A stretch of 64,000 nt of DNA from Aliikangiella marina. GTDB taxonomy: Bacteria; Pseudomonadota; Gammaproteobacteria; Enterobacterales; Kangiellaceae. Shown piece by piece: positions 38,914-62,560 of the stretch. The notes beneath the pieces were generated by a model that worked only from the letters and a program-made list of their open reading frames with translations, had not been told where the DNA came from and did no database searches. Position numbers and translations under genes: made by a program. The stretch lies in NCBI RefSeq assembly GCF_007004765.1, contig NZ_VIKR01000006.1:1-64000 (forward strand), read 5' to 3'. Each line of letters opens with the position of its first letter. Position 1 is the first letter of the stretch.

Positions 38914-39717
38914 ATGATTCCTCGTCACTGGAAAACTAAACAAGCTTTCCTAATCGTTACAACAATACTTATGGCGCTAACCTTTTCCGGTTGGATGGCT
39001 ATGCTCAATAATTTTGTGGTTGAAGAAGCTGCGTTTACGGGGCGCGAAATCGGGATTCTTCAGAGCTTGCGAGAGGTTCCTGGTTTTCTCGCGTTTACAG
39101 CTGTGTTTATATTGCTGGTAATGAAAGAGCAAACGCTTGCATTAGTGTCACTGTGCCTCGTATCTATCGGCGTTGCAATTACCGGACTGTTCCCTTTTGA
39201 ATACGGTTTGTATGCGACAACCGTTTTGATGTCGATTGGGTTTCACTATTTTGAGACGGTAAACACCTCGTTGACGCTGCAATGGGTCGAAAAAAGTGAA
39301 ACCCCTACGTTTATGGGGAAAATTATCTCCGTCAAGTCAATGGTTTCCTTAGTAGCCTACGGAATGATTTGGTTGTTCTTTAGCATTTTTTTGCTCGACT
39401 TTTCCACCGCTTACCTGGTCATAGGTGGGTTGGGGTTCGTTCTCTTTCTGTGGTTATGGTTAGCTTTTCCACAGTTTGAGTCGCCAGTCGAGCAACATCG
39501 GAAATTAATACTACGAAAACGCTACTGGCTTTATTATCTGCTCACTTTTTTTAGTGGGGCAAGGCACCAGATATTTATGGTTTTTGTCTTCTATTCAAAA
39601 ATTTCCAACTACTCCAAGGTTTGGAGTATTCAAAATCGTTTAAAATACTTTATAAATCAGTTAGATAACTATACTAAGCCTTCTTCACACTCTTTACAAC
39701 AAGTAGCTTTTTTGTAA
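38914..39717 (+). pseudogene. MFS transporter, N-terminal half, cut by the island
   Basis: Codes for the first ~224 residues (helices 1 to ~7) of a ~376-aa major facilitator protein. True sequence ends at MVF, position ~39586. The last 43 codons to the stop at 39717 (starting VFYSKISNYSKVW) are island DNA read by accident. Start ATG 38914 (MIPRHWKTKQ) is chosen by alignment with the intact homologue at 39783; a GTG at 38872 is less likely. LNNFVVE, GREIGILQSLREVPGFLAF and SIGFHYFETVN are shared with the homologue. The missing half is at 62099-62560. Presumably non-functional unless the island excises. Confidence 0.9.
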
Positions 39718-39782
39718 AGGATAAGGTTTCATACTCAATTCCATGCCTAATAGAGACCACCTAAACTTTAAAATACCAAGCT

Positions 39783-40973
39783 ATGATCACTTTCGAACGT
39801 AACAAAGAAACCTTTTTATTAATCTCGGCATTTATCATGCCGCTGATTTTTTCTGTTTGGATGGTTTTATTAAACAATTTCGTTGTCGAAAAAGCAAACT
39901 TCACAGGCAAAGAAATTGGCTTTTTACAGAGCATACGGGAAATACCAGGTTTCCTAGCTTTCACTGCAATCTATTTACTTCTATTTATCAAAGAGCAAAG
40001 TTTAGCGATTTTATCTTTGTTGATAACATGCATTGGCGTTGCGTTAACGGGCATGTTTCCAACTGAGTACGGTCTGTATTTGACGACTTTGGTTATGTCT
40101 ATAGGATTTCATTATTTCGAAACGGTTAATCAATCATTAACACTTCAGTGGATAGATAAAGGAAAAACCGCTCATTTCTTAGGACAGCTTTTATCTGTTA
40201 GATCAGTAGCCTCATTATTAGCTTATAGCGCTATTTGGTGGATGATGTCGGTTGATAATTGGGAGTTTAAAGATGTGTATTTATTTTGGGGAATTGTTGC
40301 TGCTATTTTTACATTGTTTTTGTTTTTAGCATTCCCTGAATTTGAACAACCTCATGAACAGAAAAAATCACTGATTCTTCGCAAAAGATATTGGCTTTTT
40401 TATGCGTTGACATTTTTTAGTGGTGCTCGACGGCAAATATTTATTGTTTTCGCCGGTTTCTTAATGGTTCAAAAATTTGGTTATTCTGTTGCTGACGTAA
40501 GCACCTTGTTTATTATTAATTACGTATTCAATTGGGCCTTTGCCGCAAAAATAGGTAAGTGGGTTGGTCGAGTAGGAGAGCGTAAAGCACTTACTTTTGA
40601 ATATGTTGGATTGATAATTTTGTTTATTGCTTATGGACTAGTTGAAAATTCTACTGTTGCGGCAGCGCTTTATGTGATCGATCACCTTTTGTTTTCGCTT
40701 GCGATTGCGATCAAAACTTATTTTCAGAAGATTGCTGACGAGAAAGATATAGCTTCTACCGCGGGAGTGAGTTTTACAATCAACCATGTTGCAGCCGTTG
40801 TTATTCCCGCGGCGTTAGGTTTTATCTGGCTTATCTCTCATAGTGTCGTTTTTTTTATTGGTGCTAGCTTTGCGTTGTGTTCACTTTTATTAGCTTTTTT
40901 GATTCCGGCTAAACCTGATGTTGGCAATGAAGTTGATTTTGCAATAGCCAAAATTCTTCCGCGCACCAAATAA
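39783..40973 (+). CDS. MFS transporter, intact homologue of the interrupted gene
   Basis: A 396-aa, 12-helix major facilitator protein of unknown substrate. It aligns along its whole length with the two halves of the interrupted gene at roughly 60% identity: LNNFVVEKANFTGKEIG, IREIPGFLAFTA, MSIGFHYFETVNQSLTLQW, LILRKRYWLFYALTFFSGAR and AGVSFTINHVAAVVIPA. It has ~20 extra C-terminal residues. It lies inside the island ~200 bp from the left junction and has the AT-rich codon use of the island. It may replace the function lost at the insertion site. Confidence 0.92.
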   Translation: MITFERNKETFLLISAFIMPLIFSVWMVLLNNFVVEKANFTGKEIGFLQSIREIPGFLAFTAIYLLLFIKEQSLAILSLLITCIGVALTGMFPTEYGLYLTTLVMSIGFHYFETVNQSLTLQWIDKGKTAHFLGQLLSVRSVASLLAYSAIWWMMSVDNWEFKDVYLFWGIVAAIFTLFLFLAFPEFEQPHEQKKSLILRKRYWLFYALTFFSGARRQIFIVFAGFLMVQKFGYSVADVSTLFIINYVFNWAFAAKIGKWVGRVGERKALTFEYVGLIILFIAYGLVENSTVAAALYVIDHLLFSLAIAIKTYFQKIADEKDIASTAGVSFTINHVAAVVIPAALGFIWLISHSVVFFIGASFALCSLLLAFLIPAKPDVGNEVDFAIAKILPRTK

Positions 40974-41593
40974 GAATTAAATTAAAAGAAAAAGACTCAA
41001 ATAATTTATTTTGATTTAATTTTATTTGCTTAACGCTATAGTTTTTTGAGATATTATCGCAGGTTTCTAAAATTTTATTAGATTTGCTAAAAAATAAATG
41101 GTAAAAAAATAGCAAAAATCAAACAAGTAATACTGAAAAGAATCATTCTTTAAAAAGCCTTTCTAACAACTAATTAATTCCTTTGCGTCATATTAGGATT
41201 AATTGATGTTTTGCTTTAATGGAGTTCAAGTGGAACTTAAATCATTTAGATTGTATGAATCGAATGTGACATAAGTCGTAAATTTGAATCAATTTAGCAG
41301 TTAATCAAAACAGTAGTCTCTATCAATAATATATGAATCTAATAGTTAGGGTGATTTGTGTATTGTATTGCTAATACGAGATAAATTTTTACACATACTT
41401 GGATTAAAGGCCGAATGAAATTGTGGTCAGTCTACACCGGATAAACAAAAGCTTGTGAAGAGAAAGGTAGGACGTTCGAGAATCAAAATTAGAAAATAAA
41501 TTGTCAGGCCCTGCAAAAATAGTCAAACGCTAACTGAAGCTGAACCCAGTCGAAGTTGTAATTTGGGATTCGTTTACTCAACATGGAGGATGA
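40974..41593. other. 620-bp AT-rich intergenic region
   Basis: No credible ORF on either strand. The sequence is very AT-rich near the left end and less so after ~41400. It presumably holds the promoter of the two-gene cluster that follows. I see no strong repeat or RNA structure. Confidence 0.5.
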
Positions 41594-43129
41594 ATGAAAA
41601 CACTCGTTTTTACAACAAGAAAAATGGAGCAAACAAAGTTCAGTGATGCTACCTTTTGCAATAATATTGATGAACTCCCGTTGCTTTATGATTATGACCT
41701 GTTTTTATTCGAAGTAGGGTCGCATAAAGCTCCTAGCTCGGAAGTCATACAGGAGCTAGATTCCGCCGTTTCAGCAGGGTTAAAGGTTGTGTTGTTTTTG
41801 TCACGAGAATCAAATGCTAATGAATTAATAAATTTGCTTGGGTTAAAGTTTGAAATGACTAGAATTAGTGGAGAAGAATTTAGTTATTCACAAGGTGTCG
41901 ATGCGTCTCCATTTCTGGAATATTTTAAACAATACGATTACATATTTAGAAAAACTCCTGGTTGGCAGTCTATAGCTTACTCAAAGAAAGCTGAAAAAAT
42001 GATATCAGGAATCAAAAAAGTTAAAGCAGGTTCATACTCTGTTTTCCCTTTAGCAATTGAATTGAATAGTGGCTTGTTAGAGCTGATTAAAAAAAGCCTT
42101 AAAATAGATGGCGATAAAAGTACCTATTCGTTTAAATCTGCTGTTATGGCGTTAGTTATACCTATTGTTTTTGTGTTTTTCGCTAGCTTTGTTGTTAAAG
42201 TTCTTCGGTTAGATCAAATTAAAAAGAATAATCAAATATCAAATGGTGATTGGCTAAATGCGCGAGAAGTAGGAGTACGTTTTTATGACGTTAAAAGCCA
42301 TACTGTAGCTGGATTACTTAGAGGACGTTTAAGTGTAGATGAGTCTAATAAGTTATCTTTGAATTACTCAGCAGGTACGCGAAAACTCAATATATTACAA
42401 GAGCTAGGGAATAGGGAGGAGTTTAAGACTACTATTTATGAAAGTGCTCGATACAGCCCTGAAGAAACCGCTGAGTGGCTTTATTTTTATTCGTTTCGAC
42501 TTTTAAATGAAGGGCGAGTACATCTAGCTAGAGATGCTGCGATTAAAGCGTACGCTATTCATCTAAAACACCAGCTGTCTGATCAACTTGGACAAAAAGT
42601 AATTCACTTGTATGAGTTGTTAAAATATAACTTTCTTGCTTCGAAAGAAAATATTAATTGGTCTTTCATGATTGAACGAAAAAGCTTTAGGTTTTTTAGA
42701 TTAAATTTCGATTCTAGTCTCAGAGATAATGCTTCATATCATATGACGGCATTAATGTTTCCTTTGTGCCGCGAACCTTGTTCTAAGAATGAAACCAAAT
42801 CACGATGGTTGAGTTTTATCGATAATTTTGAGAATAGTGAAAAAATAGATGAAGCCCATTACAATGTAATCATTCAGGAAATATTTACTGGCAAACTAGA
42901 AGAGGCATTCAATCGTATTATTAAGTTTAAGGCGGCTTATCCTGACTCTTATTTAGTAGATGACTCTCTTCAGATTCTGAAACGATTGTCTATTGAAGTG
43001 GCACCAGATATATGTATTAAGGCGGATAAGATGCTTTATGACGTGGTGAATAAAAATGACAAATCTTTTGTTAGAAGTGAAGCTGAAATAATAGAGGAGC
43101 AAAAGTTTTGTAAAGAGGGGTGGTCTTAA
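41594..43129 (+). CDS. Unknown membrane protein with C-terminal helical repeats, 511 aa
   Basis: Family not recognised. Residues 1-170 look like an alpha/beta domain: MKTLVFTTRK, DYDLFLFEVGSHKAPSSEVI, then AGLKVVLFLSRES. This resembles a Rossmann or glutamine-amidotransferase-like sensor fold. One membrane helix is at ~183-204 (AVMALVIPIVFVFFASFVVK). The remaining ~300 residues are mostly helical and TPR-like (EETAEWLYFYSFRLLNEGRV, LARDAAIKAYAIHLK, EEAFNRIIKFKAAYPDSYLV). GGAGGATGA precedes the ATG. The next gene starts one base after the stop, so the two form a unit. Anti-phage defence is a guess from context. Confidence 0.78.
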   Translation: MKTLVFTTRKMEQTKFSDATFCNNIDELPLLYDYDLFLFEVGSHKAPSSEVIQELDSAVSAGLKVVLFLSRESNANELINLLGLKFEMTRISGEEFSYSQGVDASPFLEYFKQYDYIFRKTPGWQSIAYSKKAEKMISGIKKVKAGSYSVFPLAIELNSGLLELIKKSLKIDGDKSTYSFKSAVMALVIPIVFVFFASFVVKVLRLDQIKKNNQISNGDWLNAREVGVRFYDVKSHTVAGLLRGRLSVDESNKLSLNYSAGTRKLNILQELGNREEFKTTIYESARYSPEETAEWLYFYSFRLLNEGRVHLARDAAIKAYAIHLKHQLSDQLGQKVIHLYELLKYNFLASKENINWSFMIERKSFRFFRLNFDSSLRDNASYHMTALMFPLCREPCSKNETKSRWLSFIDNFENSEKIDEAHYNVIIQEIFTGKLEEAFNRIIKFKAAYPDSYLVDDSLQILKRLSIEVAPDICIKADKMLYDVVNKNDKSFVRSEAEIIEEQKFCKEGWS

Positions 43130-43130
43130 A

Positions 43131-44105
43131 ATGGCTAATCAAAATAAAGAATCTAGCATTTTTTGGTCTTGGAAAGCACTTGTGTTTCTATTAACCGTAG
43201 TTTTAGTGGTGGTTTCTCAGATATCTTCGTTAGTTAGTAACATAAACATTCTTGCAGTTGGTTTAGAAATTTTGGGTGATGAATTGGTTTATTTAGGAAT
43301 AGTGTTTCTTTTACTTGTTTTAACGCTAGCAATTTTAAAATCAAATTACCTAAATTTAAAAAGCGTGGTCTTGGCGGGAGCCAAGGTAGAAAGGTTAGTT
43401 GTAGGGATGTTAATTATATCTTTTGTAGTTGTTCTGGCATACTTTGGGGGAAGTTTGGCAACAAACCTTAAGTATCTAGCATTAGGAAACTACATAGAGT
43501 TCAATAGAATACATGGTAGCTATCTTATAAAAGCACAGGCACATTTTGATGATTATGAATTGGACGAAGCACTAAAGGAGGTAGAAAGTTGTTTCAGTGT
43601 CACTAAATCTTATAGTTGCAAAGTGGTTGCGGATGAAATAAAGGCTAGGAAGGAGTTGTCAGATAAAGTATATAGATTGGCGCAAAACAAAGTTCTAAGT
43701 TTAAGGGGAAGAATTAAAGTACTTCGTGATTATGATCTAATTAGTATGCAAGGTGAAGAAGCGGATGAATTTTTAAAGCAGCTTAGAGTTAAAGGTACTG
43801 ATTTAAAAAAGAAGTATAAGCAAAGTATTGAGTATTTGACAAATGGGAGGATTAAAGAAGGCTTACTCTTTATAGATGAACTGGATTCGGAATGGAGTGA
43901 TTATGGTAACAATCGGGCACTGGCATCTGAAGTATTGAAGCTAAAATCTACCTTCGGAGAAAAGTTTTATAGTGATGAGTTTTGGGAAAGAGTAGAAAAT
44001 AAGAATGAATATCCATATTGGGATGCTCTTAAACGACATGGAGCAAGTGATTACATTGACATAACTGTTGCCAATACAATGAAAGGTTTAGATTTGATCG
44101 ACTGA
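43131..44105 (+). CDS. Unknown 3-TM protein with helical repeat domain, 324 aa
   Basis: Family not recognised. Three membrane helices are predicted at ~15-36, ~52-70 and ~88-108, then a long helical soluble domain with TPR-like pattern (YLIKAQAHFDDYELDEALKE, SIEYLTNGRIKEGLLFIDEL). It starts one base after the stop of the 511-aa gene, so it is translationally coupled. Both proteins are membrane-anchored and end in a helical-repeat region, suggesting they work as a complex at the membrane. AT-rich codon use matches the island. Confidence 0.78.
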   Translation: MANQNKESSIFWSWKALVFLLTVVLVVVSQISSLVSNINILAVGLEILGDELVYLGIVFLLLVLTLAILKSNYLNLKSVVLAGAKVERLVVGMLIISFVVVLAYFGGSLATNLKYLALGNYIEFNRIHGSYLIKAQAHFDDYELDEALKEVESCFSVTKSYSCKVVADEIKARKELSDKVYRLAQNKVLSLRGRIKVLRDYDLISMQGEEADEFLKQLRVKGTDLKKKYKQSIEYLTNGRIKEGLLFIDELDSEWSDYGNNRALASEVLKLKSTFGEKFYSDEFWERVENKNEYPYWDALKRHGASDYIDITVANTMKGLDLID

Positions 44106-44673: not shown

Positions 44674-44690
44674 TGGCAATTCCTAAATCA

Positions 44691-46421: not shown

Positions 46422-47681
46422 ATGTCGAGATTATCAAAAACGGAAGTGGGAATTGAGTGGGTCAAACAGTTTAGTGTTGATGAGCAAAGTCTTGCGGTAA
46501 AATTACTAGATGAATTGACTCTAGTTGGACATGATGAATTTATTGATGGGCTTAGACAGCGAATAATAGATAAGACAAACAAAGTACCTGGAATGGTCGC
46601 ACTATATGCTGAACGTGAAATAAGAAGAGGCAAAAATAGAGTCCCGAATCGATTATATAAAGAACCTTATAGAAAGAAAAATCGTAGAGCTTATGGTGGT
46701 GGACCACAGCCCGTGCTACCTACCAAGAATTATGATTTAAAAGTTGGCAGTGAAGGTATTATTTCATGGCTTATTTCAGAGCTTTGTACAGAATTTCCTA
46801 AGAAATTTATTTGCCATCCAAGTCCAAAACAAATAAGAACTAAAAAAGTTCGGAAATTTATTTTAGTTACTGATCTTATCGGAACTGGAAATCGAGCATT
46901 TGAATATTTTGAGTCAGCCTGGCGAGTTGCAAGTGTTAAAAGCTGGAAGTCGCTTAAATTGTGGTCGTTTGGAGTTATTGCATACTCTGGTAGTGATTTA
47001 GGAATAAAAAGGGTAATGTCACATAAGTGCAAACCTACCGTTGATCTCGTTAAGCCCTGTCCTACCATAACTTCTGAATTCGATTTACCACTTTCGATAA
47101 GTATTAAAAATCTTTGTATAAATTATGACCCTATTGATCATGACTCTAAGGAATCGCTTGGTTACAAAGGAAGTGGAGCACTTATTGTTTTCTCCCATGG
47201 CTGCCCTAACAATTGTCCTCGGATTTTACACAAGTCAGTTAAAAACAAATGGATAGCATTATTCCCTAAAAGGAAAACATCCAAATTAAGGCGTATATTT
47301 AGTCAAGAAAACAGCAAGATCACTTTGGAAAAAAAGCTTAAAAAGCTGCATGAAACTAGATTAGCTAAAGGGTATTGGATTCCTAAAACGAGTGTAGAAG
47401 GAAGGAAAATCCTAATGATACTTGCAGCACTAAGAAGAGGCCCTCGTTTTAGTGAGGCGATAGCTAGGAAAACAGGTCTTACTATACCTGAAATAGAAAT
47501 CATAATAGAAAAAGCGAAAGAATGGTCTTGGATTAGTGAAAAGCTGTATTTAACAGCAGCAGGTAAAGGGCAGTTGTCGCATGCAAGAAAAATAAAATCT
47601 AGTATTGTACAATGCCAGAAAAATAGCGAGAAAATATACTTTCCTAAATTGCTGAGGGCACCGCAAATTGCTTCTAGTTAA
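46422..47681 (+). CDS. Retron effector: phosphoribosyltransferase-like with winged helix
   Basis: A 419-aa cytoplasmic protein. The middle (~105-285) has PRTase features: KFILVTDLIGTGNRAFEYFE (147-166) is the PRPP-binding strand-loop (hydrophobic strand, DxxGTG), and SGALIVFSHGCPNNCP (251-266) carries a PNN motif seen in PRTase-like effectors. The C terminus (~325-390: ILAALRRGPRFSEAIARKTG, LTIPEIEIIIEKA, KLYLTAAGKGQL) is a winged helix. In published retron schemes a PRTase/wHTH protein accompanies one class (type III, from memory). AGGA precedes the ATG. Its 3' end contains the left arm of the retron RNA repeat. Confidence 0.8.
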   Translation: MSRLSKTEVGIEWVKQFSVDEQSLAVKLLDELTLVGHDEFIDGLRQRIIDKTNKVPGMVALYAEREIRRGKNRVPNRLYKEPYRKKNRRAYGGGPQPVLPTKNYDLKVGSEGIISWLISELCTEFPKKFICHPSPKQIRTKKVRKFILVTDLIGTGNRAFEYFESAWRVASVKSWKSLKLWSFGVIAYSGSDLGIKRVMSHKCKPTVDLVKPCPTITSEFDLPLSISIKNLCINYDPIDHDSKESLGYKGSGALIVFSHGCPNNCPRILHKSVKNKWIALFPKRKTSKLRRIFSQENSKITLEKKLKKLHETRLAKGYWIPKTSVEGRKILMILAALRRGPRFSEAIARKTGLTIPEIEIIIEKAKEWSWISEKLYLTAAGKGQLSHARKIKSSIVQCQKNSEKIYFPKLLRAPQIASS

Positions 47682-47890
47682 TGTTGGCCTAACTAGTCAA
47701 CTACAACGTGCTTTTATCTTTATTGCACGATTGAGGGGTGCAGAATACTGCTACTCTTTGTTTGAGCGAGCGCTTGCGCTAAGGTCTATCGCGCTTTGCG
47801 CGTGGCGAAGACTTGCGGCAAACCGCGATAGAACTCACCTGACGGTGTCAAAGTAGATGCATATTTGGTGCCCTCAGCAATTTAGGAAAG
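47639..47890 (+). ncRNA. Retron msr-msd RNA
   Basis: A perfect 24-bp inverted repeat (47639-47662 with 47867-47890, GGTGCCCTCAGCAA in its core) is the expected a1/a2 pair. It encloses CGTGC/GCACG (47707-47729), a GC-rich AGCGC/GCGCT hairpin (47769-47780), and a long stem TCTATCGCG (47785-47793)/CGCGATAGA (47824-47832) extended by TTTGC/GCAAA. That stem is the likely msd template. CACC/GGTG follows (47836-47847). Arm a1 lies in the last codons of the effector gene and a2 inside the RT gene. The branching G and exact msd ends cannot be fixed by eye. Confidence 0.82.
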
Positions 47891-49020
47891 CCGGGGAGGC
47901 AAATAATGTTGACCCGAAAGTTATTGAGAATGCCATTCAGGTAGCAAGTGCGGTTCAGGCTGTAGATAAAAGGTTACCCCCTATCTTTTCCTTGCGACAT
48001 ATCTCCCATTTAACGGGAGTTGATTATTTTGTATTACGTTCATTAGTTGAAAGGAATTACATAGAACCGTACAAGGTTTTTAAATTAGATAAGAAAAACA
48101 AACGCTCGGGAAACAGAGGATACAGAATTATTAGTATTCCTTCCCCTCAATTGATGATAGTGCAAAAATGGATAGCGAAGAATATTCTCAAGTTTGGTGA
48201 GGTTCATACAGCAAGTTTCGCGTATGCAGAAAATAGTAAGATTATACAAGCTGCGACACTGCACTGTAATTGTACTTGGATGATTAAACTAGATGTAAGT
48301 AATTTCTTTGAATCGTTTTCCGAGATCGCTGCATATCGCGTGTTTAGAACTTTGGGTTACCAACCACTCATCTCTTTCGAGATGTCTCGGCTTTGCACCA
48401 AATTGGGAACTGAGACAAGACTGCGACGTCATCCCGCATGGCAGAGTAGCTCCTTCAGTAAGTATCACAAAATATCGAGATATAGAAATAGAGCAATTGG
48501 GCATCTTCCGCAAGGGGCACCAACTAGTCCAATGCTATCAAATTTAGCAATGAAAAATTTTGATAGTGCAGTATCAAAAATAGCCTTAGATAACAATCTT
48601 GTTTATTCGCGCTATGCAGACGATTTGTGCTTGTCTACTAATGATAAAAGCTTTGATCGAACTATAGCAAGAAAAGTAATAATTTCTATATATGAGAAAA
48701 TGAATGCAATTGGGTTGAAACCTAATTTAACGAAAACTCAAATCGTCCCTCCTGGAGCTAGGAAAATTGTCCTTGGATTGCTTGTTGATGGTAATTCTCC
48801 AAAGCTGTCTCGCGAATTTCGTGCAAAACTGAGAATGCACTTTCATTTCCTATGCCGTTCCGATATAGGTCCAGCCAAACACGCTGAACGCCGAGGATTT
48901 GAGTCTGTAATGGGGCTAAAAAATCATATCCAGGGCTTAATTGCTTACGCAAGGCAGATCGATCCTACCTATGCTTCCTCATGCGACGAGCATATGGATA
49001 ACATAAATTGGCCGTTTTAA
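47857..49020 (+). CDS. Retron-type reverse transcriptase
   Basis: A 387-aa RT that would prime from a 2'-OH in the msr and copy the msd to make RNA-linked DNA. RT motifs: SIPSPQLMIVQKWI (RT1 region), the retron-type NAxxH analogue IIQAATLHC (129-137), catalytic D146 in KLDVSNFFESF, GHLPQGAPTSPMLSNLAM (215-232), YSRYADDLCLS with YADD 253-256, and VLGLLVDG in place of the usual VTGL. ATG 47857 lies 10 bp before arm a2, so N-terminal codons overlap the RNA; no good ribosome site is visible and a later start cannot be excluded. Confidence 0.9.
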   Translation: MHIWCPQQFRKAGEANNVDPKVIENAIQVASAVQAVDKRLPPIFSLRHISHLTGVDYFVLRSLVERNYIEPYKVFKLDKKNKRSGNRGYRIISIPSPQLMIVQKWIAKNILKFGEVHTASFAYAENSKIIQAATLHCNCTWMIKLDVSNFFESFSEIAAYRVFRTLGYQPLISFEMSRLCTKLGTETRLRRHPAWQSSSFSKYHKISRYRNRAIGHLPQGAPTSPMLSNLAMKNFDSAVSKIALDNNLVYSRYADDLCLSTNDKSFDRTIARKVIISIYEKMNAIGLKPNLTKTQIVPPGARKIVLGLLVDGNSPKLSREFRAKLRMHFHFLCRSDIGPAKHAERRGFESVMGLKNHIQGLIAYARQIDPTYASSCDEHMDNINWPF

Positions 49021-52398: not shown

Positions 52399-52400
52399 AT

Positions 52401-55400
52401 TTGTTTTTTTGGATAAGGAGAATATTTAATTCACTTCAGTATCATGTAGATAAAAATATAAATGAAACGCTCTATCAAAATGAAGCGTTTCAATCTAGCA
52501 AATGGAATTTGATGGAGCACAATATTCTACGCTGGTCTCAAAGGCACACTTACTACATTTTTCTCGCCTTAGTTCTAGCAAGTCTTTTTATTGCAAATTT
52601 ATTAATCTGGAAAGAAAAATTGAGTCCGGTTGCGATGGAGTTATTTCCTCATTGGACAAAGCTAATTGACTGGCAAGGAGGATTTCTAGCTGGTCAATTA
52701 ACCATCGTTGGTGTTGTTTACCCACTTGTTATCGGTTTGATTGGCGTACTTTTTCAAGCTAAATCCGCCAAGAAGACATTGTTTCCTATCTATCAAATGT
52801 ATTCCGGATTCATGTTCGCCGGATTAAGCGGTCTATTATTATCAATGTTTATAATAGCCAGTTACTTTCTAAGCGCATCAATGGATGAGTCAACATATCT
52901 AGCAATTTGCATAACAACCGCATTGTGGTTGTTCTTTAACGTTTTGTTAACAAGTTGGTTTTTTACTGTAACTTTCCTGATGTTAGATGAATCAAAGAGA
53001 GACAGGCTTATTGTTCGTTACACTATTCACGAATTGTGTGAAATCGACATTCGGCATCGAATTAGACAATTATTATTGCAAAACGCTGTACATCAGAAGC
53101 TTTTGGTTAGTCCTGATGAAAACGTATTAAAAGTTAGGACATATAAGTTTTCTGACGACAAGTATAGTGAAATTAAGTTAAGGTCAACGGATAAAGTATG
53201 TGTTAACAACGTATATTTTTCCATCATAAATATTGTGATTCGATACCATGTTTATCGACTAAAAGTTCTTCATTGGATAAATAGAATTAAATTAGGAAAG
53301 CGTCTAACTTCATTAAAAGGATTTGGTTGGTTGCTTTTTGATACAGGTGCTGAACCAGAAGTAGTTGTACAACCGATTTGGACGACAGAAAAAGAAAAGG
53401 GCCTTGTAGTCGTAAGGTATATTGGAATTGATATTGGGTGGGTTTCTAAAGCAGTTATAAAAGCTAGCATTAAAACTGATAAAGATGAGGAAGACTCTGA
53501 CAAAAGTTTAACCTCAATGATGCTCGGTTTTGTTGGTACCGCAAATGATTCAATTCGAGATCAGAATATTGGTGAATTCAAGTATGCAATCGGCAATATC
53601 GTAAGGTGGCACATAGAGATCGCTTCTGCGTTAAGTTTTTTAAATGATAATAAAGAAGAAGATAATTGGTTGTTACTACCGACAGCTACATTCTTCAGTC
53701 GTAGCTATCTAGACGAAATTTTGTCTGAGTATTATAGACTTTCTAAGGCTTCAGTAGAATTGATTTCAGAAAACATTGAGTTTTTTGATGAAATGCTCTA
53801 TCTGCACAAGCGAATCTTCTTACGACGAGAAAAACTAGTAAATAAAGAAGGTTTCTCCTTGATTCAGGGAAGTTATTTTATTTGGTCACTGTTGATGGAG
53901 TGGCGCTCATATAGTTCAACGTCAACTGATATGCGTATAGCTAGTAAATATGAAGATGTGCTTTTAGACTTCGTTGGAGCATGGGAAGCTTGGTTGGATT
54001 ATATAGAGCCTAGAAGTAAACGCTCGAAAAATATACAGCAATCATTACCTCTGTTTTTAACACATCTTGAATTTACAGCTCATACGACAATTTCTGCACT
54101 AAGGCATAACAATATGGAAGCAGCAGGTTGGGGTGTCGATATGTTAAATAACTGGATTGAGAAACTTGCTATAAGAACTCAAGGCCTCGAAGAATATTGG
54201 TGGCGTTCTGAATTAGTTACTCACGATATCTTGCTTGAAGGTCCAGATACAGAACTTTGGCAAATAATTTTAAATGGTAATGATTTTAATCTTAAGCCTG
54301 CATTTAATTTAGCACTTACTAATGCGGTTTTTGACTTAAGAATAATATCTGCGTGCTACATATTATTGAAGCCTGCTTCCGGTGACAACGACAAAATTGG
54401 GGAATATGTTAAAGCTTTACTAGCAGGTAAAGCAATTCACCCAACTGGTGGGGTTGGTAGAAGACGAAAGTCTGTTAATAAAGCGAGTGATATATTAGGT
54501 GCGTTTATCAGACACAGAGATTATTCTAATTATGGCGAGGGAAGTTATGGCTCTTGGTTGTCAAAAGTACTTGATTCATTTGGTCGACTAAACGAGAAGC
54601 GACGAGTATCTGGCCGCATTTATACCGGCTGGGGGTCGAATGATGTTAAAAGTATGAATAGAGCCTATGTGGAAATCGCGTTATATCATTCTGCTAGCTT
54701 ATGGAAGCTAGAACAAAAGTGGTTTGACATTATATTTTCTAACGCATTTCGACATGTGGATCAAGAGTCGTTGGTAAGAGATCTAACAGACTGGATTAAA
54801 TTATCCGATGAAATCGAAAATCCAGTGCTTTTAACTCAAGATGAATTTAATCAAAATATCGACAATTTTAAATATTCAATACAGAAAACAATTGATGCAA
54901 TAAACCAACGGCAAAATGAAGTGGTTGCGCAGGCAGAAGTTGATGAAGAATTGTTGACTCAATTTGGTGTTGTCTGTTCAGAGATTTTTAACAGTAGAGA
55001 ACAGCAACTTGTAAATTTCCCAATAAACTTGTTTAAGATTGTAAGTTTAGATGGAGGAATGAGTGATGAAAATTCGTTTAAGATTAATATTCAGGATTAT
55101 TTGAAGCAAAATATTGCTTCAAACGTTGATGCCAATCGAGCAATCAATGAAGAAGAGTGGTTGAAGTCTGCAACTAATAACAATGTTGAAATTAATATTT
55201 TAAGGGCGCTTTTAAAGTACCAGGCTTCGGATGTCAGAGAATACTCTGATGCAGAAAGCAACGTACTTGAACTTATAGGTTTAGCCATTTCAATAGAACG
55301 CCCAATATTGTTTGTCGGTGATGATGAGTTGAGTGATGTTTTTTATGATGCTCGACATAATAAAGAATTAGCTGATAAATATAAAATAACATTCGCCGAC

Positions 55401-55676
55401 GGCTTTGGTAATAACTATATTTGTCATCTAGGAGAAATATTAGTTTATAGCATTTCTTTCTCCGATGTTAACTTCTCTCTGTTAACAACTAAAGAGCTAT
55501 TTGAATCTATTCAGTTTTCTCCGATAACCGAGGAGCAGTTCGTTCAAGTAATGTATGATGCTAGTGAGGAGAATGAGAATATAGGTGTTTTGTCACTAAA
55601 ATATTGGATGAATATTAATCTGAAGGAAGATCAGGTTTGTATAAAAACTTCTATAAAGGTCAAGGAAGAGCAATGA
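52401..55676 (+). CDS. Large membrane protein inside the RM operon, 1091 aa
   Basis: Family not recognised. Four membrane helices are predicted in the first 200 residues (~51-70, ~96-118, ~134-158, ~166-193). Then ~890 mostly cytoplasmic residues follow, predicted helical and without nuclease, ATPase or protease motifs I can name. Start is TTG 52401 with AGAGGTG ~8 bp upstream and only two bases after hsdS; the next good ATG (52512) has no site. Its stop overlaps the hsdR start (ATGA). The tight fit between hsdS and hsdR argues for a working link to the RM system, perhaps as a backup membrane effector. Confidence 0.85.
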   Translation: MFFWIRRIFNSLQYHVDKNINETLYQNEAFQSSKWNLMEHNILRWSQRHTYYIFLALVLASLFIANLLIWKEKLSPVAMELFPHWTKLIDWQGGFLAGQLTIVGVVYPLVIGLIGVLFQAKSAKKTLFPIYQMYSGFMFAGLSGLLLSMFIIASYFLSASMDESTYLAICITTALWLFFNVLLTSWFFTVTFLMLDESKRDRLIVRYTIHELCEIDIRHRIRQLLLQNAVHQKLLVSPDENVLKVRTYKFSDDKYSEIKLRSTDKVCVNNVYFSIINIVIRYHVYRLKVLHWINRIKLGKRLTSLKGFGWLLFDTGAEPEVVVQPIWTTEKEKGLVVVRYIGIDIGWVSKAVIKASIKTDKDEEDSDKSLTSMMLGFVGTANDSIRDQNIGEFKYAIGNIVRWHIEIASALSFLNDNKEEDNWLLLPTATFFSRSYLDEILSEYYRLSKASVELISENIEFFDEMLYLHKRIFLRREKLVNKEGFSLIQGSYFIWSLLMEWRSYSSTSTDMRIASKYEDVLLDFVGAWEAWLDYIEPRSKRSKNIQQSLPLFLTHLEFTAHTTISALRHNNMEAAGWGVDMLNNWIEKLAIRTQGLEEYWWRSELVTHDILLEGPDTELWQIILNGNDFNLKPAFNLALTNAVFDLRIISACYILLKPASGDNDKIGEYVKALLAGKAIHPTGGVGRRRKSVNKASDILGAFIRHRDYSNYGEGSYGSWLSKVLDSFGRLNEKRRVSGRIYTGWGSNDVKSMNRAYVEIALYHSASLWKLEQKWFDIIFSNAFRHVDQESLVRDLTDWIKLSDEIENPVLLTQDEFNQNIDNFKYSIQKTIDAINQRQNEVVAQAEVDEELLTQFGVVCSEIFNSREQQLVNFPINLFKIVSLDGGMSDENSFKINIQDYLKQNIASNVDANRAINEEEWLKSATNNNVEINILRALLKYQASDVREYSDAESNVLELIGLAISIERPILFVGDDELSDVFYDARHNKELADKYKITFADGFGNNYICHLGEILVYSISFSDVNFSLLTTKELFESIQFSPITEEQFVQVMYDASEENENIGVLSLKYWMNINLKEDQVCIKTSIKVKEEQ

Positions 55677-58600
55677 AGTTTACAGAAGAAAAGTTAGAAA
55701 AAGCGATAATTGAATTGTTCGAGAGGCAAGGCTTTCTTTATGTCGCTGGGAACGATATTCAACGCATAAATGCAGATGTGCTGATAGAATCAGATTTACA
55801 CAAATTTTTATTGGATAAGTATGCTGAAGATAATATAACTTCCAATGAAATCGATACTATCGTTAAACAAATTGAATCACTTTCATCTGGTGATTTATAT
55901 GAAAGTAACAAAACCTTCTGTAAATGGTTAAGTGACGGTTTTTTACTAAAACGAGAAGATCACACCCAAAAAGACTTATACATTCAGCTGATCGACTATA
56001 ACGACCTTACTCAACTCAAACAACCTAATGCACAAGATCTCGATGTTATGGGAGATCAAACAAATGAACCTCAAAAGGTTTATCAAACCAAGAATATTTA
56101 CAAAATAGTTAATCAACTAGAAATTGAAGGCCCAAGTGGAATTAAGCGTATTCCTGACGGCATTTTATATATTAACGGTATCCCGGTTGTTGTCTTTGAA
56201 TTCAAGAGCGCAATTCGAGAAGAAGAAGCTACTATCCATGATGCCTATGTTCAGCTTACCACTCGATATCGGAGAGACATTCCAAAGCTGTTTGTTTACA
56301 ACGCATTATGTGTGATAAGTGATGGCGTAAACAACAAGATGGGCAGTTTCTTTGCTCCTTATGAATTCTTCTATGCTTGGCGAAAAGTGACCGGTGACGA
56401 ATCGATTGAAAAGGAGGGCATTAACTCTTTGCACACCATGTTGCAGGGATTGTTCGACAAAAGACGATTGCGTGACGTTATCCGTAATTTCATTTATTTT
56501 CCTGATACATCCAACCAAGAAGTAAAAATTGTCTGTCGCTATCCTCAATACTATGCCGCTAACAAGCTCTATGACAATATTAAAGAACACCGAAAGCCTG
56601 AAGGCGATGGTAAGGGCGGAACATATTTCGGTGCAACTGGATGCGGTAAAAGTTTTACCATGCAATTCTTATCACGCTTATTAATGAAGAGCGTTGAATT
56701 TGGAAGTCCAACCATTATCTTGATTACAGATAGAACTGATTTAGATGATCAATTATCACAACAATTTACTAACGCCAAGAAATACATAGGCGATGACACC
56801 ATTCTAGCCGTTGAAAGCCGAGACCATCTGCGAGAATTACTTAAAGGCCGAAACAGTGGCGGCGTTTTTCTGACAACAATTCACAAATTTACTGAAGATA
56901 CCGAATTACTCACTGAGCGAAGTAATGTGATTTGTATATCAGATGAAGCACATCGTTCTCAAACTAATCTAGACCAAAAAGTTAAAATTACAGAGCAGGG
57001 CGTAAAGCGCACCTACGGTTTTGCAAAGTACTTACATGACTCATTACCCAATGCAACCTATGTCGGCTTCACTGGCACTCCTGTAGACGCGACGCTCGAT
57101 GTGTTTGGTGAAGTTGTAGATGCCTACACAATGACCGAATCGGTTAAGGACGAAATAACTGTTCGTATTGTCTATGAAGGCCGTGCGGCCAAGGTACTTT
57201 TAAACAATGCAAAATTAAAAGAAATAGAAGAGTACTATAAGCAATGTGCCGAAGAAGGCAGCAATGAACACCAGATTGAAGAGAGTAAAAAAGCTTCCAC
57301 AAATATGACATTGATCCTAGGCGATCCTGACCGTATAGAAGCATTAGCGAAAGACTTTGTTACCCATTATGAAACACGGGTTAGCGAAGGCTCTACGCTT
57401 AAAGGTAAAGCCATGTTTGTCAGTAGTGCTCGCAATGTGGCTTATCGCTTTTACAAAGAACTAAAAGAGCTACGCCCAGAGTGGTTTGAAATATTAGAGT
57501 GTGAGGAAGGCGTTACACTCACTGATGAAGAACGCAAAAAGATTAAACCCATGGAGCGGGTTAAAATGGTAATGACCCGTGGCAAGGATGATCCTAAAGA
57601 GCTATGGGACTTGCTTGGCACTAAAGAGTATCGAAAAGAGCTAGATCGTCAATTTAAGAACGAAAAGTCGAATTTTAAAATAGCCATTGTCGTTGATATG
57701 TGGCTCACCGGTTTCGATGTGCCATTCTTGGATACCATTTATATCGATAAACCAATACAGCGTCATAATCTTATCCAAACCATATCACGAGTTAATCGTA
57801 AATTTGAAGGCAAAGACAAAGGCCTGGTTGTTGATTACATCGGCATTAAAACGCAGATGAACAAAGCGTTAGCCCAATACTCAAAAACCGATGAGACAAA
57901 CTTTGAGGATATTGCCCAGTCAGTAATAGTTGTTAAAGATCACCTGGATCTCCTCAATAAAATGTTCCATAAATTTGACGACTCGCCATATTTCACTGGC
58001 GAGCCAGTGGCCCAGCTCAACTGCCTCAATAATGCCGCAGAGTTTGTTCTGAGAAGCCAGAAGTTAGAGCATCGTTTTATGGCCCTGGTGAAACGACTAA
58101 AGACCGCTTACGATATCTGCTGCGGCAGCGAAAAACTCAACCAGGAAGAAAAGGACTATATTCATTTCTATATTGCAGTTCGCTCCATTGTCTACAAACT
58201 AACCAAAGGTAATGCGCCAGACACGGCACAAATGAATGCCAAAGTCCGCCAAATGATCGCAGAAGCACTCAAGAGCGATGGGGTAGAAGAAATCTTTAAA
58301 CTTGGTACTGCCGAAAGTGAAGTCGATATCTTTGACGATGATTACCTGGCCAAAATAGATAAGATTAAATTACCCAATACCAAGATAATTCTGCTTCAAC
58401 AAATGTTAGCCAAAGCTATCGATGAATTTAAAAAGGTCAACCGTGCGAAAGGCATAGACTTCACCAAGAAGTTTAAAGCGCTAGTCGAAAAATACAATGA
58501 ACGTAAAGAAGACGATGTCCTGGTTAGTGAGGTGCTAGAAGAGTTTTCAGAAGAAATAATCGGCATGTTCGGCGAACTAAAAACTGAAATGGGTTCATTT

Positions 58601-58906
58601 GAAGAGCTTGGGATCGATTTCGAAGAAAAAGCCTTCTACGATATTCTTTTAGCCTTAGCTCATAAATACGATTTCGAATATCCTGAAGATAAGTTAATTG
58701 AATTATCAAAAGCCGTAAAAGAAGTTGTTGACGATATCGCCAAATATACTGACTGGAGTCAGCGGGATGATATTAAAGCTGAGCTTAAAGTTGACTTAAT
58801 AATGCTTCTGGCGAAGTTTAAATATCCGCCTGTTGATAGGGATGAAGTGTACAAAGAGATATTTGAGCAAGCCGAGAACTTTAAAAAGAATAGGGCTGTA
58901 GTTTAA
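55673..58906 (+). CDS. hsdR: Type I restriction endonuclease subunit
   Basis: The motor and nuclease subunit, cutting DNA far from the site after translocation. 1077 aa: nuclease PD-(D/E)xK motif in RIPDGILYINGIPVVVFEFK (~158-177), Walker A GATGCGKS (320-327), DEAH at 424-427 in CISDEAHRSQT, VGFTGTPVDA, and the late helicase motifs VVDMWLTGFDVPFLD and QTISRVNRKFEGKDKG. The frame is open upstream, but ATG 55673 overlaps the previous stop and follows GGAAGAG, so it is the start. The family is usually ~1000-1100 aa. Confidence 0.96.
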   Translation: MKFTEEKLEKAIIELFERQGFLYVAGNDIQRINADVLIESDLHKFLLDKYAEDNITSNEIDTIVKQIESLSSGDLYESNKTFCKWLSDGFLLKREDHTQKDLYIQLIDYNDLTQLKQPNAQDLDVMGDQTNEPQKVYQTKNIYKIVNQLEIEGPSGIKRIPDGILYINGIPVVVFEFKSAIREEEATIHDAYVQLTTRYRRDIPKLFVYNALCVISDGVNNKMGSFFAPYEFFYAWRKVTGDESIEKEGINSLHTMLQGLFDKRRLRDVIRNFIYFPDTSNQEVKIVCRYPQYYAANKLYDNIKEHRKPEGDGKGGTYFGATGCGKSFTMQFLSRLLMKSVEFGSPTIILITDRTDLDDQLSQQFTNAKKYIGDDTILAVESRDHLRELLKGRNSGGVFLTTIHKFTEDTELLTERSNVICISDEAHRSQTNLDQKVKITEQGVKRTYGFAKYLHDSLPNATYVGFTGTPVDATLDVFGEVVDAYTMTESVKDEITVRIVYEGRAAKVLLNNAKLKEIEEYYKQCAEEGSNEHQIEESKKASTNMTLILGDPDRIEALAKDFVTHYETRVSEGSTLKGKAMFVSSARNVAYRFYKELKELRPEWFEILECEEGVTLTDEERKKIKPMERVKMVMTRGKDDPKELWDLLGTKEYRKELDRQFKNEKSNFKIAIVVDMWLTGFDVPFLDTIYIDKPIQRHNLIQTISRVNRKFEGKDKGLVVDYIGIKTQMNKALAQYSKTDETNFEDIAQSVIVVKDHLDLLNKMFHKFDDSPYFTGEPVAQLNCLNNAAEFVLRSQKLEHRFMALVKRLKTAYDICCGSEKLNQEEKDYIHFYIAVRSIVYKLTKGNAPDTAQMNAKVRQMIAEALKSDGVEEIFKLGTAESEVDIFDDDYLAKIDKIKLPNTKIILLQQMLAKAIDEFKKVNRAKGIDFTKKFKALVEKYNERKEDDVLVSEVLEEFSEEIIGMFGELKTEMGSFEELGIDFEEKAFYDILLALAHKYDFEYPEDKLIELSKAVKEVVDDIAKYTDWSQRDDIKAELKVDLIMLLAKFKYPPVDRDEVYKEIFEQAENFKKNRAVV

Positions 58907-58917
58907 GGGCTGAATAT

Positions 58918-59982
58918 ATGGCAATTTATAAAATAGCAGATGAACAATTAATTCCTGTTGAGCGCACTTCGTTTAATAAGGAAGGAGTGCTTGAACGCCA
59001 GCACCTTCAGCAAATGCTTAAGTCGCAAATTGATATTATTTCTCCTGATACACTACTCGTTGCGGAAGAATTTGGGGATTGGGAAGATAGCCGTCGCCGT
59101 ATAGATCTACTGGGTATTGATAAGAATGCCAATCTGGTAGTGATTGAGCTCAAGCGCACGGAAGATGGAGGCCACATGGAGCTTCAGGCAATTCGTTATG
59201 GCGCGATGATATCCACTCTAACTTTTGATAAATTGGTTCAAATATATACAAAGTACCTATCAGATAATAATGCTGATTTAGATGCTAAGGCTAGTCTTTT
59301 AAAATTCCTGGAATGGGATGAGCCAGATGAAGATAATTTTGCTCAAGAAGTAAAAGTTTTACTTGCTTCAGCGGAATTTTCTAAGGAGCTCACTACCTCT
59401 GTTATCTGGCTGAACGATTTCGGTCTAGATATACGCTGTGTTCGCATGCATCCGTATATAAATGATGGTCAGTTACTACTTGATATACAAACTGTGATAC
59501 CTGTTCCTGAGACGGCTGATTATCAAGTGAAAATTAGAGAAAAGAAGCAACGCGAAAGGGCGTCTCGCAACCAACATCGTGATACAACAAAGTTTGACCT
59601 TACTATTAATAGTAAAGAACATCGCTCATTGAGTAAGCGGTGGCTGGTATTTCAAGTAATTAAACCGATCATCGACTCTGGGGTTTCTCCAACTGAGGTT
59701 CAAAGTGTCATCGATGACGTGCCTGAACGAAGATCAAAACTATTTGAAGTATTTGAAGGTGAGCTAGATGAAAAAGATCTCTATGAAGTCATCATGGCCG
59801 GTGATTCTGGCGGTGCTGTCCCTCGAATCAAGCGTTTTTTTGCTAAAAAAGGAGAGTTCTTCCACCATAATGGAAATACATTTGTTCTGAGTAATCAATG
59901 GGGGGTAGGTGCATTGGAAACGATTGATGCTTTAGCGAGAAACTTTTCAAATTTTTCGATTGATTATTCCGCAAGAGATTAA
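58918..59982 (+). CDS. NucS/DUF91-like PD-(D/E)xK nuclease
   Basis: A 354-aa protein whose first ~150 residues carry the NucS C-terminal-type (DUF91) nuclease fold: SRRRIDLLGIDKNANLVVIE then LKRTEDGGHMELQAIRYGA. This gives D62, E79 and K81 as the PD-(D/E)xK triad, with Q93 as the extra residue. The rest has VIWLNDFGLDIRCVRMHPY and a C-terminal part (~220-354) without recognised fold. It starts 11 bp after hsdR, so it is likely the last gene of the RM operon, an accessory nuclease. Confidence 0.85.
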   Translation: MAIYKIADEQLIPVERTSFNKEGVLERQHLQQMLKSQIDIISPDTLLVAEEFGDWEDSRRRIDLLGIDKNANLVVIELKRTEDGGHMELQAIRYGAMISTLTFDKLVQIYTKYLSDNNADLDAKASLLKFLEWDEPDEDNFAQEVKVLLASAEFSKELTTSVIWLNDFGLDIRCVRMHPYINDGQLLLDIQTVIPVPETADYQVKIREKKQRERASRNQHRDTTKFDLTINSKEHRSLSKRWLVFQVIKPIIDSGVSPTEVQSVIDDVPERRSKLFEVFEGELDEKDLYEVIMAGDSGGAVPRIKRFFAKKGEFFHHNGNTFVLSNQWGVGALETIDALARNFSNFSIDYSARD

Positions 59983-60101
59983 GCGTTTGCATATTGAACG
60001 TACATTTTACTGAACAAAGTTTGTTGCTGTCCATTAAAAGGTTCTGTTTGGAGTGAAAGCAAAGCTGGGTACTATCATTCAACAAAAAGGATGTGTTTAA
60101 G

Positions 60102-60707
60102 ATGAAAACATTTTGGAATTACTTGAAGAGCTTCAAAAATTTGCATGTGGATTTATCTACAATATTGATCCTATTGTTAATTGTGGTGCTTATCTGGCCG
60201 ACACTTCTTAATGGAATTCTGGGTGGCTTTGAATACCTTAATTCGGACTACATTCTACCCGAATCATTGAAAAATACATTCTTAGGCGTAATTGCTAATT
60301 TAATTACGGCTGCCATTGTCGTTCCCACAATCTTTTATTTTTTTAATTTAAAAAGGAAGACTCATTTGTGCGGCGAGTTTAAAGCATTTGATATAGAAGA
60401 TGGAAACGAAAAATATTGAGGTGATGTAAAGTTGACCTTTAATCTGTTTTCTAATGGTGCTCGCGGAATATTAACCTCAAAAGACTCTGATGCTAGCATC
60501 ATTATAGAGGCTGTATTTGAAAATGGACGATATTTACGAGGCCATTATATAGAAGAGAAGAGGCCCACGAGACGAAGAATGGGCGCTTTTTTATTTATGC
60601 TAAATGGTGAAGGAGATAGTTACGAAGGTCAGTATGTATTTGTAGATCCAAATGATAACAACTACCTTCCTAAGACTGGTCGCGCAAAGTGGGTAAAGCT
60701 GGCGTAG
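60102..60707 (+). pseudogene. 2TM/beta-rich protein gene split by in-frame TGA
   Basis: Two open frames (to 60419, and from 60420 to 60707) lie in the same phase with a single TGA between them. Across the TGA the sequence reads NEKY-stop-GDVKLTFNLFSNG, so a TGG (Trp) to TGA change restores a ~201-aa protein. It has two N-terminal membrane helices (~16-37, ~60-83) and a ~115-residue beta-rich C-terminal domain (TSKDSDASIIIEAVFENGRY, GEGDSYEGQYVFVDPND, TGRAKWVKL). The layout recalls 2TM-beta effectors of CBASS (Cap15-like), but no cyclase gene is nearby. It may instead be read through. Confidence 0.7.
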
Positions 60708-61156
60708 TGGAGGTTTTTCACCGATTTGATTTTCGTAGTGATATTGTAGTAGACATATATGAACCTATAATAGGTGAATACGTATGGCTGTCTATGTACT
60801 TGGGTGCTCCTTTTAGAAATGGGGCGTTGTCAAAAGATTTGGTCAAATATTTATTGTTCGAATTAAAAGGAAAACATCACATTCATTGGTTCAAATGTTT
60901 GAACTCGTTTAAGGAGCTTTCAAAAGAGTTGGAATGGAAAACTAAAGGATCTTCTCCATTTTTTGAAGAGTGTATGGCTTCTGTAGCGCCTAATTTAAAT
61001 ACTAAGACACATTACCATCAAATATTTAAGGAAATCTTAAAATACAAGAAACTAACTTCATGTCCGGAGCTTTTGACTTATTCTGATCGCTCGAATCAAT
61101 TGAAAGCGGTGAAATTAATAAACAATCACTTCAATGTAGAGCTCGCTCAAAAATAA
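60707..61156 (+). CDS. Hypothetical protein, ~149 aa
   Basis: Family not recognised. A small soluble protein with an aromatic N-terminal part (HRFDFRSDIVVDIYEPIIGE, YVWLSMYLGAPFRNGALSKD) and a helical lysine-rich C-terminal half (LNSFKELSKELEWKTKG, YHQIFKEILKYKKLTS). GTG 60707 overlaps the previous TAG in TAGTG; GTG 60689 would add six residues. It appears coupled to the broken 2TM gene. Island cargo of unknown role. Confidence 0.6.
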   Translation: MEVFHRFDFRSDIVVDIYEPIIGEYVWLSMYLGAPFRNGALSKDLVKYLLFELKGKHHIHWFKCLNSFKELSKELEWKTKGSSPFFEECMASVAPNLNTKTHYHQIFKEILKYKKLTSCPELLTYSDRSNQLKAVKLINNHFNVELAQK

Positions 61157-61234
61157 AACTTTTAATTTTATTAAGTTGATTAGTAGAATCAATGAAAAGA
61201 TATTAAAAGCGATATGTAAGTATAGAAAGTGGTT

Positions 61235-61945
61235 CTAGATTAAATTACTCCTATGATAGGTACATAACGAAAGGCAGTTTCTGGTTTTACCATGCGTAAA
61301 GGGATTGTTTGGCGAGTCTGGTTGAATAACTTCCAGTAATTGTAGATATTTCTTTGGTGGAATTTTTGACTCAGGCTCTTGTACAGTATTATTGAAAGAC
61401 TTTAATTTTTGTTTTTCTTCAGACAAAACAGCAATGACTTAGTGAAAGTTCGCGTTTGTTTCTTTTGATGAATTGACCTTTCCATGCATTCCTTCAAAAA
61501 GATACGTGATGAACTTTATAGCTACTCTGAGACGAGCAGATGTTGTGTCAGTCGAAACTTGATCTTTTCCTTTCTGGGATGAATGAATAGCATTTTGTAA
61601 CGACTTGTTGGTGAAAGTCTTCTTTTGAACGGTCTTGCCAATACAAGATTTAAGTTTTTTAGCTGCCTCAACAAATCTATTAACTTCCTTTTTGGATAAA
61701 AATTCACCAGATTCGGCACGAGATATAATATCTATGCCAATTCCTTTATTCTGGGCACTAAGAAATGTCAGTAAGAAATGAAGATCTTCAACATGCTTAG
61801 CTATAGTATTAGGTTGTCCACTAGAACAAGCTCTTAGATAATTCGATATATAAGGGGATACAGGAATCCAGTAATCATCAACAATAGAAACATGAGTACT
61901 ATTAGTACCATTTCCTTTATTAACCAGATACCTTTTTACCTTCAT
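61235..61945 (-). pseudogene. Decayed tyrosine recombinase/integrase
   Basis: The first frame (168 aa, 61945 to 61439) has the N-terminal layout of large tyrosine recombinases: VSIVDDYWIPVSPYISNYLR, then QPNTIAKHVEDLHFLLTFLS, the core-binding domain, then ARLRVAIKFITYLFEG. It stops. A second frame just downstream continues with SEEKQKLKSFNNTVQEPESK, PPKKYLQLLEVIQPDSPNNP and FTHGKTRN, where the family enters its catalytic domain, then ends. The catalytic Arg/His/Tyr region is missing. So the gene has a stop or frameshift and a 3' loss. Near the right junction, it is the likely former integrase of the island. Confidence 0.78.
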
Positions 61946-62098
61946 ATATCAACCATCAGTAACATCTCTTCATGAGAATATAGTGAGTATTCTTAAAAAC
62001 CGGTACAAATTTTTTTAACTATTTTTAATCAACTACTTAATTTACTTTTCTTCTTGTCTTCCTATACAGAAGCTTTACAAATAAAAGATAAGATATAA

Positions 62099-62560
62099 TT
62101 TGCTGGCTTTATGATGGTGGAAAAATTTGGTTATTCAGCTTCTGATATTGTTCTGCTGTATATCGCCAACCATGTATTAAACTGGTACTTAGCGCCAAAA
62201 ATTGGCCATTGGATAGGCAGAATTGGAGAGAGAAAAGCTTTAACAATCGAGTATATTGGACTGGTTGGTGTTTTTGTAAGTTATGGCCTCGTTGACGATG
62301 CCAACATCGCGGCAGGGCTGTATATAATCGACCACATTTTTTTTGCGATGGCTATTGCTATAAAAACTTTCTTTCAGAAGATAGCGGATCCGGCTGATAT
62401 TGCTTCATCCGCCGGGGTGAGTTTCACCATCAATCATATCGCCGCGGTGATAATTCCCGCGGCATTCGGTTTGATCTGGCTGGTGAACCCGTCGTTAGTC
62501 TTTTTTGCCGGTGCGGCAATGGCAGTTTGTTCTTTGATACTGGCGCAGTTTATTGATTAA
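62099..62560 (+). pseudogene. MFS transporter, C-terminal half, cut by the island
   Basis: Encodes the last ~153 residues (helices ~7-12) of the transporter whose N-terminal half is at 38914. It resumes with AGFMMVEKFGYSASDIVLLY and contains LNWYLAPKIGHWIGRIGERK, AIAIKTFFQKIADP and AGVSFTINHIAAVIIPAAFG, aligning with the intact homologue. No ribosome site precedes the first in-frame ATG (62111). GC content and codon use return to those of the chromosome. Confidence 0.9.

Follow-up and report, generated by a model that had tools for sequence, protein, structure and literature searches.

A putative decayed GInt-type island in an MFS gene of Aliikangiella marina, with a foreign homolog of the gene next to the break

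An MFS gene of Aliikangiella marina is split by an inserted island of 22,516 bp (39587..62102, plus strand) in the window, that is, in the whole 64,000-nucleotide stretch of contig NZ_VIKR01000006.1 analyzed here. At 196 bp inside its left junction, and in the same direction as the broken gene, the island carries an intact MFS gene of the broken target's subfamily and of Alteromonadales-type ancestry (39783..40973, plus strand); near its other end lies the fragment of a recombinase gene. We read the island as a decayed relative of the GInts (genomic islands with three integrases; Bardaji et al. 2017, PMC5385486), and its intact MFS gene as a borrowed stand-in for the destroyed target, the latter from the evidence of one genome. 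The whole reading, in which a decayed GInt-type island has split its target and a foreign stand-in replaces the function of this target, has in our estimate a probability of about 0.7.

The split gene and its insertion site

The N-terminal half of the gene and its junction occupy 38914..39586 (plus strand), with codons 1-224 at 38914-39585, and its frame continues into the island until a stop at 39717. The C-terminal half (62099..62560, plus strand) has 152 codons (62102-62557) and a stop codon at 62558-62560. A 4-bp identity at the crossover, TTTG, is present on the plus strand at both junctions (39583..39586 and 62099..62102), and joining the two flanks in a script reproduces the VFAGF codons in frame. 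The split by an island of about 22.5 kb with base-level junctions, the paired TTTG, and the in-frame join had all been proposed in an earlier note made from the letters of the window, and all are reproduced here. This note had also suggested aligning the two halves with uninterrupted homologs. When this is done with tblastn, residues 224 and 225 are adjacent in all 32 of them (loci L004-L035), a set that omits L036, with its start at residue 235, and the 27% relative L037. Among the six genus mates, five have a single uninterrupted copy of the gene, and the sixth (82% complete) is without any.

The insertion point lies within the stretch GARRQIF-x-VFA[GS][FY]. The GARRQIF part is present in 32/32 homologs, versus GARHQIF (H for R) in the broken gene. 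This stretch is strongly conserved, though not the most conserved of the protein: the 11-residue segment centered on the break ranks 32nd of 366 over the 32 homolog rows, at which rank VFAGF was rejected as the most conserved motif (the FHYFET site, discussed below, ranks 49th of 366). Neither half of the broken gene has acquired a stop or a frameshift, so that the insertion is probably recent; it is undated, as synonymous sites have reached saturation between species.

The protein of the island MFS gene was searched in 394 genomes sampled from the order (121 matched), 295 genomes of one family (141 matched), 369 genomes sampled from the class (19 matched), and 61 relatives (27 matched); scoring in the order, family, and class searches was limited to the best few candidates of each genome. 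By our own tally, 268 different genomes contain at least part of the MFS gene, and a gin-like element splits it in three of them: the window genome, G472, and G542 (the broken or partial copies of G797, G810, G815, G890, G917, G942, and G967 are not counted). In G472, which belongs to another family, the N-terminal half (contig 32) ends at the same codon as in the window and the cut codons are identical, while next to the C-terminal half (contig 36) a truncated ginA-like gene is divergent from it, as in the window. The two halves of G472 align at 93% to the uncut site of the congener G542, where they meet with a 2-base overlap (blastn). G472 has later been rearranged; its N-terminal half is followed by ~300 bp of element end and then by the native downstream gene, and the C-terminal half stands on a separate contig. 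This kind of element cuts the gene midway, at conserved codons, in two families. The view of the earlier note, that a site-specific element with a decayed recombinase at its end uses a protein-coding gene as target, agrees with the uninterrupted orthologs of the genus mates and with G472, which has the same insertion point and the same kind of recombinase. An assembly error, or a gene ancestrally in two pieces, is extremely improbable as an explanation of the split, given the single uninterrupted gene of five genus mates and an independent genome that repeats the insertion point.

In G542, the same MFS gene harbors a 15,140-bp element (L071:7139 to L072:2278) inserted at its FHYFET codons, a place where G472 is uncut. 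A further genome, G572 (L067:8165-8215), carries an extra ATAA exactly at the first site, so that the site reads ATAATTTGC and the MFS gene is broken; these four bases are the ones that precede TTTG at the element ends of the window and of G472. The addition looks like an excision footprint, and we take it as such. Because the restored sites described in the GInt paper show base changes or have lost 2 or 6 nt, with no insertions (PMC5385486), G572 is only a loose parallel to GInt excision. No close gin relative was found in it, the matches being two near 1e-4 and a weak one in L113. G472 and G542, each uncut where the other is occupied, the pair of elements that occupy two sites of a single gene within one genus, and the footprint of 4 nt make up a natural series on how such elements choose their sites and leave them.

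Other broken copies were considered as gin-type breaks and rejected. The insertion of G513 is near residue 200, and its open reading frame starts like what we take to be an IS110-type transposase. The break of G908 is at a gap of Ns and the pieces of G153 are at contig ends. There is no gin match at E 1e-4 in G792, G1008, and G859, nor any in G048 (which starts 941 bases into its contig) or G544 (which is degraded).

Recombinase remnant, island ends, and kinship to GInts

The ginA-like remnant (61241..61945, minus strand) is the N-terminal part of a first recombinase, a GinA-like tyrosine recombinase, contains an in-frame TAA (61439-61441), and stands ~155 bp from the right junction. Its similarity to relatives passes this TAA and ends, for most queries, between 61277 and 61241, before the catalytic domain. 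For the minus-strand open reading frame 61439-61945, neither Pfam nor NCBIfam gives an informative family; its match is to the leading recombinase gene in the sets carried by a Photobacterium plasmid and a P. aeruginosa plasmid (two records). Compared with the G472 protein, the remnant shows ~31% identity across 238 aligned positions. A complete ginABCD operon is absent from the window, which has the ginA-like remnant only. Queries with ginB-like and ginC-like proteins give nothing in the window genome, a weak negative since they were run without a positive control genome, and a ginD-like query gives nothing in the window, where alone it was searched. Neither the remnant nor the island MFS protein has a relative among viral contigs in a single-protein scan.

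An alignment of four recombinases of this type matches 28 of the 394 genomes of the order at E 1e-25, the window genome included. In addition to the three elements in MFS genes, 11 related loci were analyzed. Nine have the ginABCD order and sizes (~430-447, 546-570, 745-792, and 131-177 amino acids); of the other two, one has just the first two genes recognizable and one is a remnant. These loci are placed with the GInts because their gene arrangement is that of GInts (PMC5385486). The element of G542 codes for proteins of 426, 570, 776, and 136 amino acids and has a VPA1267-family gene as well, its second and third proteins being 23% identical to those of the Photobacterium set (E 2e-15 and 6e-34). 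What places these elements among the GInts, as proposed, is the order and size of their genes together with their likeness to the Photobacterium set.

One could suppose that the element is not a GInt at all and that the fragment derives from a Tn554-like or a recombinase-in-trio element. In favor of this, the NCBIfam families give nothing useful for the fragment, and those that match its Photobacterium relative do so weakly. We consider it quite unlikely, however, given the ginABCD order and sizes in nine of 11 related loci and likewise in the G542 element, which is in the same MFS gene. With regard to the Gamma-mobile-trio/VPA1267 elements (NF040693, NF040697), two relatives (L071 and L115) do have a VPA1267-family gene above cut-off. 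In NCBIfam, none of the tested recombinases of the relatives reaches the GmtY cut-off: the fragment has no GmtY hit and the Photobacterium relative scores 24.6 bits versus a cut-off of 340. A search for a VPA1267-like gene in the window gives no significant tblastn match.

Eight of the 11 related loci (L112, L114-L119, and L123) are directly behind an nth-like (endonuclease III) open reading frame, in five families. They comprise elements in G639, G542 (contig 7), G612, G480, G636, G749, and G484, and a remnant in G454, so that the G542 genome has a second gin-like element, behind nth. The nth label passes the NCBIfam cut-offs in both of the two open reading frames tested among these eight, and nth is not named as a recurrent target in the accessible part of the GInt text (PMC5385486).

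The island is AT-rich, as the earlier note had said (36.9% GC versus 41.8% outside), and its target is indeed not a tRNA, none being present in the 64-kb window; Rfam finds nothing at gathering score over 39500-62700. The left terminus, which is the 3′ end in GInt terms (39587..39782, plus strand), has 31% GC and contains the inverted pair CTTTACAACAA/TTTTTGTAAAG at 39692-39719. The sequence CTTTACAA is found near both ends, where the note had placed it (39692 and 62073), together with an inverted copy at 39711-39719. There are five occurrences of CTTTACAA/TTGTAAAG in the window, and the two beyond the terminal copies are at 43108, inside the island, and 30843, outside it. The 400 terminal bases contain the motif CTTTACA/TGTAAAG three times, versus 0.17 expected (2/2000 simulated sequences reach three), and the 22.1 kb of the island interior contain it twice. 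The elements of G472 and G542 each have it at their two ends, and all 16 of the 330-bp stretches compared upstream of a ginA-like gene have at least one copy, a count made without shuffled control and in which some copies lie in the flanking gene. The right terminus (62073..62102, minus strand) is a 30-nt arrangement CAAATTATA...TTTGTAAAG that recurs, unchanged in pattern and length, in G472 and the plasmid element of P. aeruginosa, so that CAA[AG]TTATA...TTTGTAAAG is on the ginA side of these three elements. We propose that the end motifs are putative binding sites of the recombinase.

The earlier note had named a second sequence shared by the two ends, TTGTCTTC. It does occur there (39584 and 62054), but as an end repeat it was rejected: this is chance level, as two shuffled ends of 60 bases have an 8-mer in common in 14% of trials, and it is missing from the ends of the G472 element. 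The TTTG is exact, and the best direct matches of 11, 14, and 17 nt are at control level in the window, G472, and G542. A perfect 8-bp inverted repeat with a 3-nt loop lies at 39610-39628, ~24 bp inside the left junction, with no T run after it.

The likeness to GInts includes the start of the recombinase operon at one end, with a ginA-type recombinase there, a short AT-rich 3′ end at the other (39587-39782 in the island), and a protein-coding target. GInts have cargo of 2.5 to at least 70 kb that includes restriction-modification, and this island of 22,516 bp carries defense genes. The insertion specificity is also high, the window and G472, of different families, being cut at the same codons. 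GInts excise as circles, in dependence on ginABCD. In contrast to the GInts, the island retains no complete ginABCD operon, only the ginA-like remnant, and it carries a complete foreign homolog of its target.

The intact copy of the target inside the island

A maximum-likelihood tree of 86 proteins places the broken gene in a clade with five genus mates and one other member of the family (98/90), and the island copy next to Pseudoalteromonas L004 (100/98), within a clade of the order's other families (100/99). By its position in this tree, the intact copy is of foreign ancestry relative to the broken gene. The earlier note had compared the joined halves with the homolog at 39783; this is an MFS homolog, but not one outside the island, as it is island cargo of different ancestry. 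Between the island copy, which is intact, and L004 the proportion of sites that differ is 0.157 for nonsynonymous and 0.841 for synonymous sites, and because the differences are mainly synonymous, the island copy seems to be mostly under purifying selection. L004 itself was rejected as an element-borne copy: its 21-kb locus has one uninterrupted MFS match and no gin-like match at E 0.01.

A genome typically has a single match of this subfamily. This is the case for 26 of 27 relatives (the exception being the window genome), 113 of 121 genomes of the order sample, and 133 of 141 of the family. Two full-length genes are found in G509, G649, and G741, where the second copy is 40-42% identical, and G792 has an intact and a decayed copy with no gin match near either.

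In the mechanism that we propose, a GinA-led recombinase module would have integrated a circular form of the element at the TTTG of the VFAGF codons, by a GinABCD-like reaction as suggested by the relatives, and would thereby have split the chromosomal MFS gene. Decay of the module to a ginA fragment would then have fixed the island. Because the intact copy starts 65 nt past the stop of the N-half frame, the target's own promoter could read through the short tail of the N-terminal half into this copy; no terminator-like site was found between the stop and the copy. The copy, from an Alteromonadales-like source, would in this manner replace the function lost by the insertion.

Joint arrival of the stand-in and the element is favored, because the end motifs upstream of the stand-in are intact. 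The intact gene might instead have been gained after the insertion, if the native loss selected for a foreign copy that recombined into the left end of the fixed island. The same sequence data are compatible with this scenario, and the two other broken genes, which are without a copy, indicate that the copy is not a standard part of such elements. It is nevertheless doubtful, as it needs a separate acquisition less than 200 bp from the break that left intact the terminal CTTTACAA inverted pair (39692-39719). Alternatively, the MFS copy may be random cargo that resembles the target and has no replacement function, and GInt cargo is reported to be very diverse (PMC5385486). This is unlikely: the subfamily is usually single-copy where present, and a match of subfamily, strand, and place is improbable, presence alone being expected in ~1 in 1000 by a rough estimate of our own.

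Several observations weigh against a GInt-type island that carries a stand-in. The assignment builds on a single remnant, 24-31% identical to the relatives compared, with no gin operon left. Of the five genes of the G542 element, the first is the only one recognized by a Pfam integrase model. The fifth reaches its cut-off in NCBIfam, the second scores far under its own, and there is no informative model for the third, or in Pfam, the database scanned for it, for the fourth. The 30-nt terminus pattern is not found in the other loci compared, including the nth elements and G542. GInts are flanked by imperfect direct repeats of 10-17 nt (PMC5385486), and here no direct att repeat longer than TTTG stands out from random controls. 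Promoter-like sites around the intact copy are at chance level. At the insertion site the island copy, like 9 of 32 homologs, has TTCG, and protection of the copy by loss of TTTG was rejected as an idea, TTC being too common. Finally, a second MFS copy was not found in G472 (80 contigs) or in G542, all candidates being scored, and the stand-in arrangement is present in one genome only.

The more general notion, that some GInt-type elements are self-compensating in that they hit strongly conserved codons and bring along, at the end that comes to lie behind the promoter of the target, a foreign form of the gene that is complete but differently spelled, is a tentative possibility; the broken genes of G472 and G542, without a second copy, speak against a general rule of stand-ins. 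Many integrating elements limit harm by using gene ends or by rebuilding the junction, and here a complete foreign gene is directly behind the break. This suggests another route by which mobile elements may make their own damage bearable, swapping host genes as they do so. If true, the targeting of conserved codons would secure a wide host range, and each insertion would exchange a host gene for that of the element. If general, host genes would be replaced by foreign ones without homologous recombination.

Comparable systems and island cargo

Tn554 has several recombinases and a small protein and inserts inside a conserved gene, radC. In these respects it resembles the elements described here, and to our knowledge it carries no homolog of its target. 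A link between GinD and the TnpC of Tn554 is stated in the GInt paper (PMC5385486), and the TnpA group is treated in PMC8138268. Target restoration by islands is well known (Islander, PMC4383910; Integrase-On-Demand, PMC12884075). Target-rebuilding islands likewise offset the damage to the target by island sequence, but they restore the disrupted gene, whereas the gene of the window remains in two pieces and is accompanied by a complete homolog separate from it. A literature search, with most subscription journals outside its reach, found no integrating element with a complete separate homolog of the gene that it splits.

On the host side, FHA and FKBP genes lie 3′ of the MFS gene in the window and in L025. 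These genes and the upstream cytochrome genes are unmatched in nine other loci compared, several of which have short flanks only.

The rest of the cargo is on the plus strand. Two adjacent genes, for proteins of 511 and 324 amino acids (41594..44105), have no informative family match. They are followed by a retron of type III-A according to PADLOC models (46422..49020), with a PRTase effector (46422-47681) and a reverse transcriptase (47857-49020), and by a type I restriction-modification system (49458..58906) composed of hsdM (49458-51038), hsdS (51028-52398), and hsdR (55637-58906). Between hsdS and hsdR is a gene for a protein of 1091 amino acids (52401-55676) without Pfam, NCBIfam, or PADLOC match at the limits used, which is possibly an additional defense component. 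A candidate defense protein, PDC-S11 of PADLOC, is at 58918..59982. Because its cargo includes the type III-A retron, the type I restriction system, and the PDC-S11 candidate, the island is a defense island.

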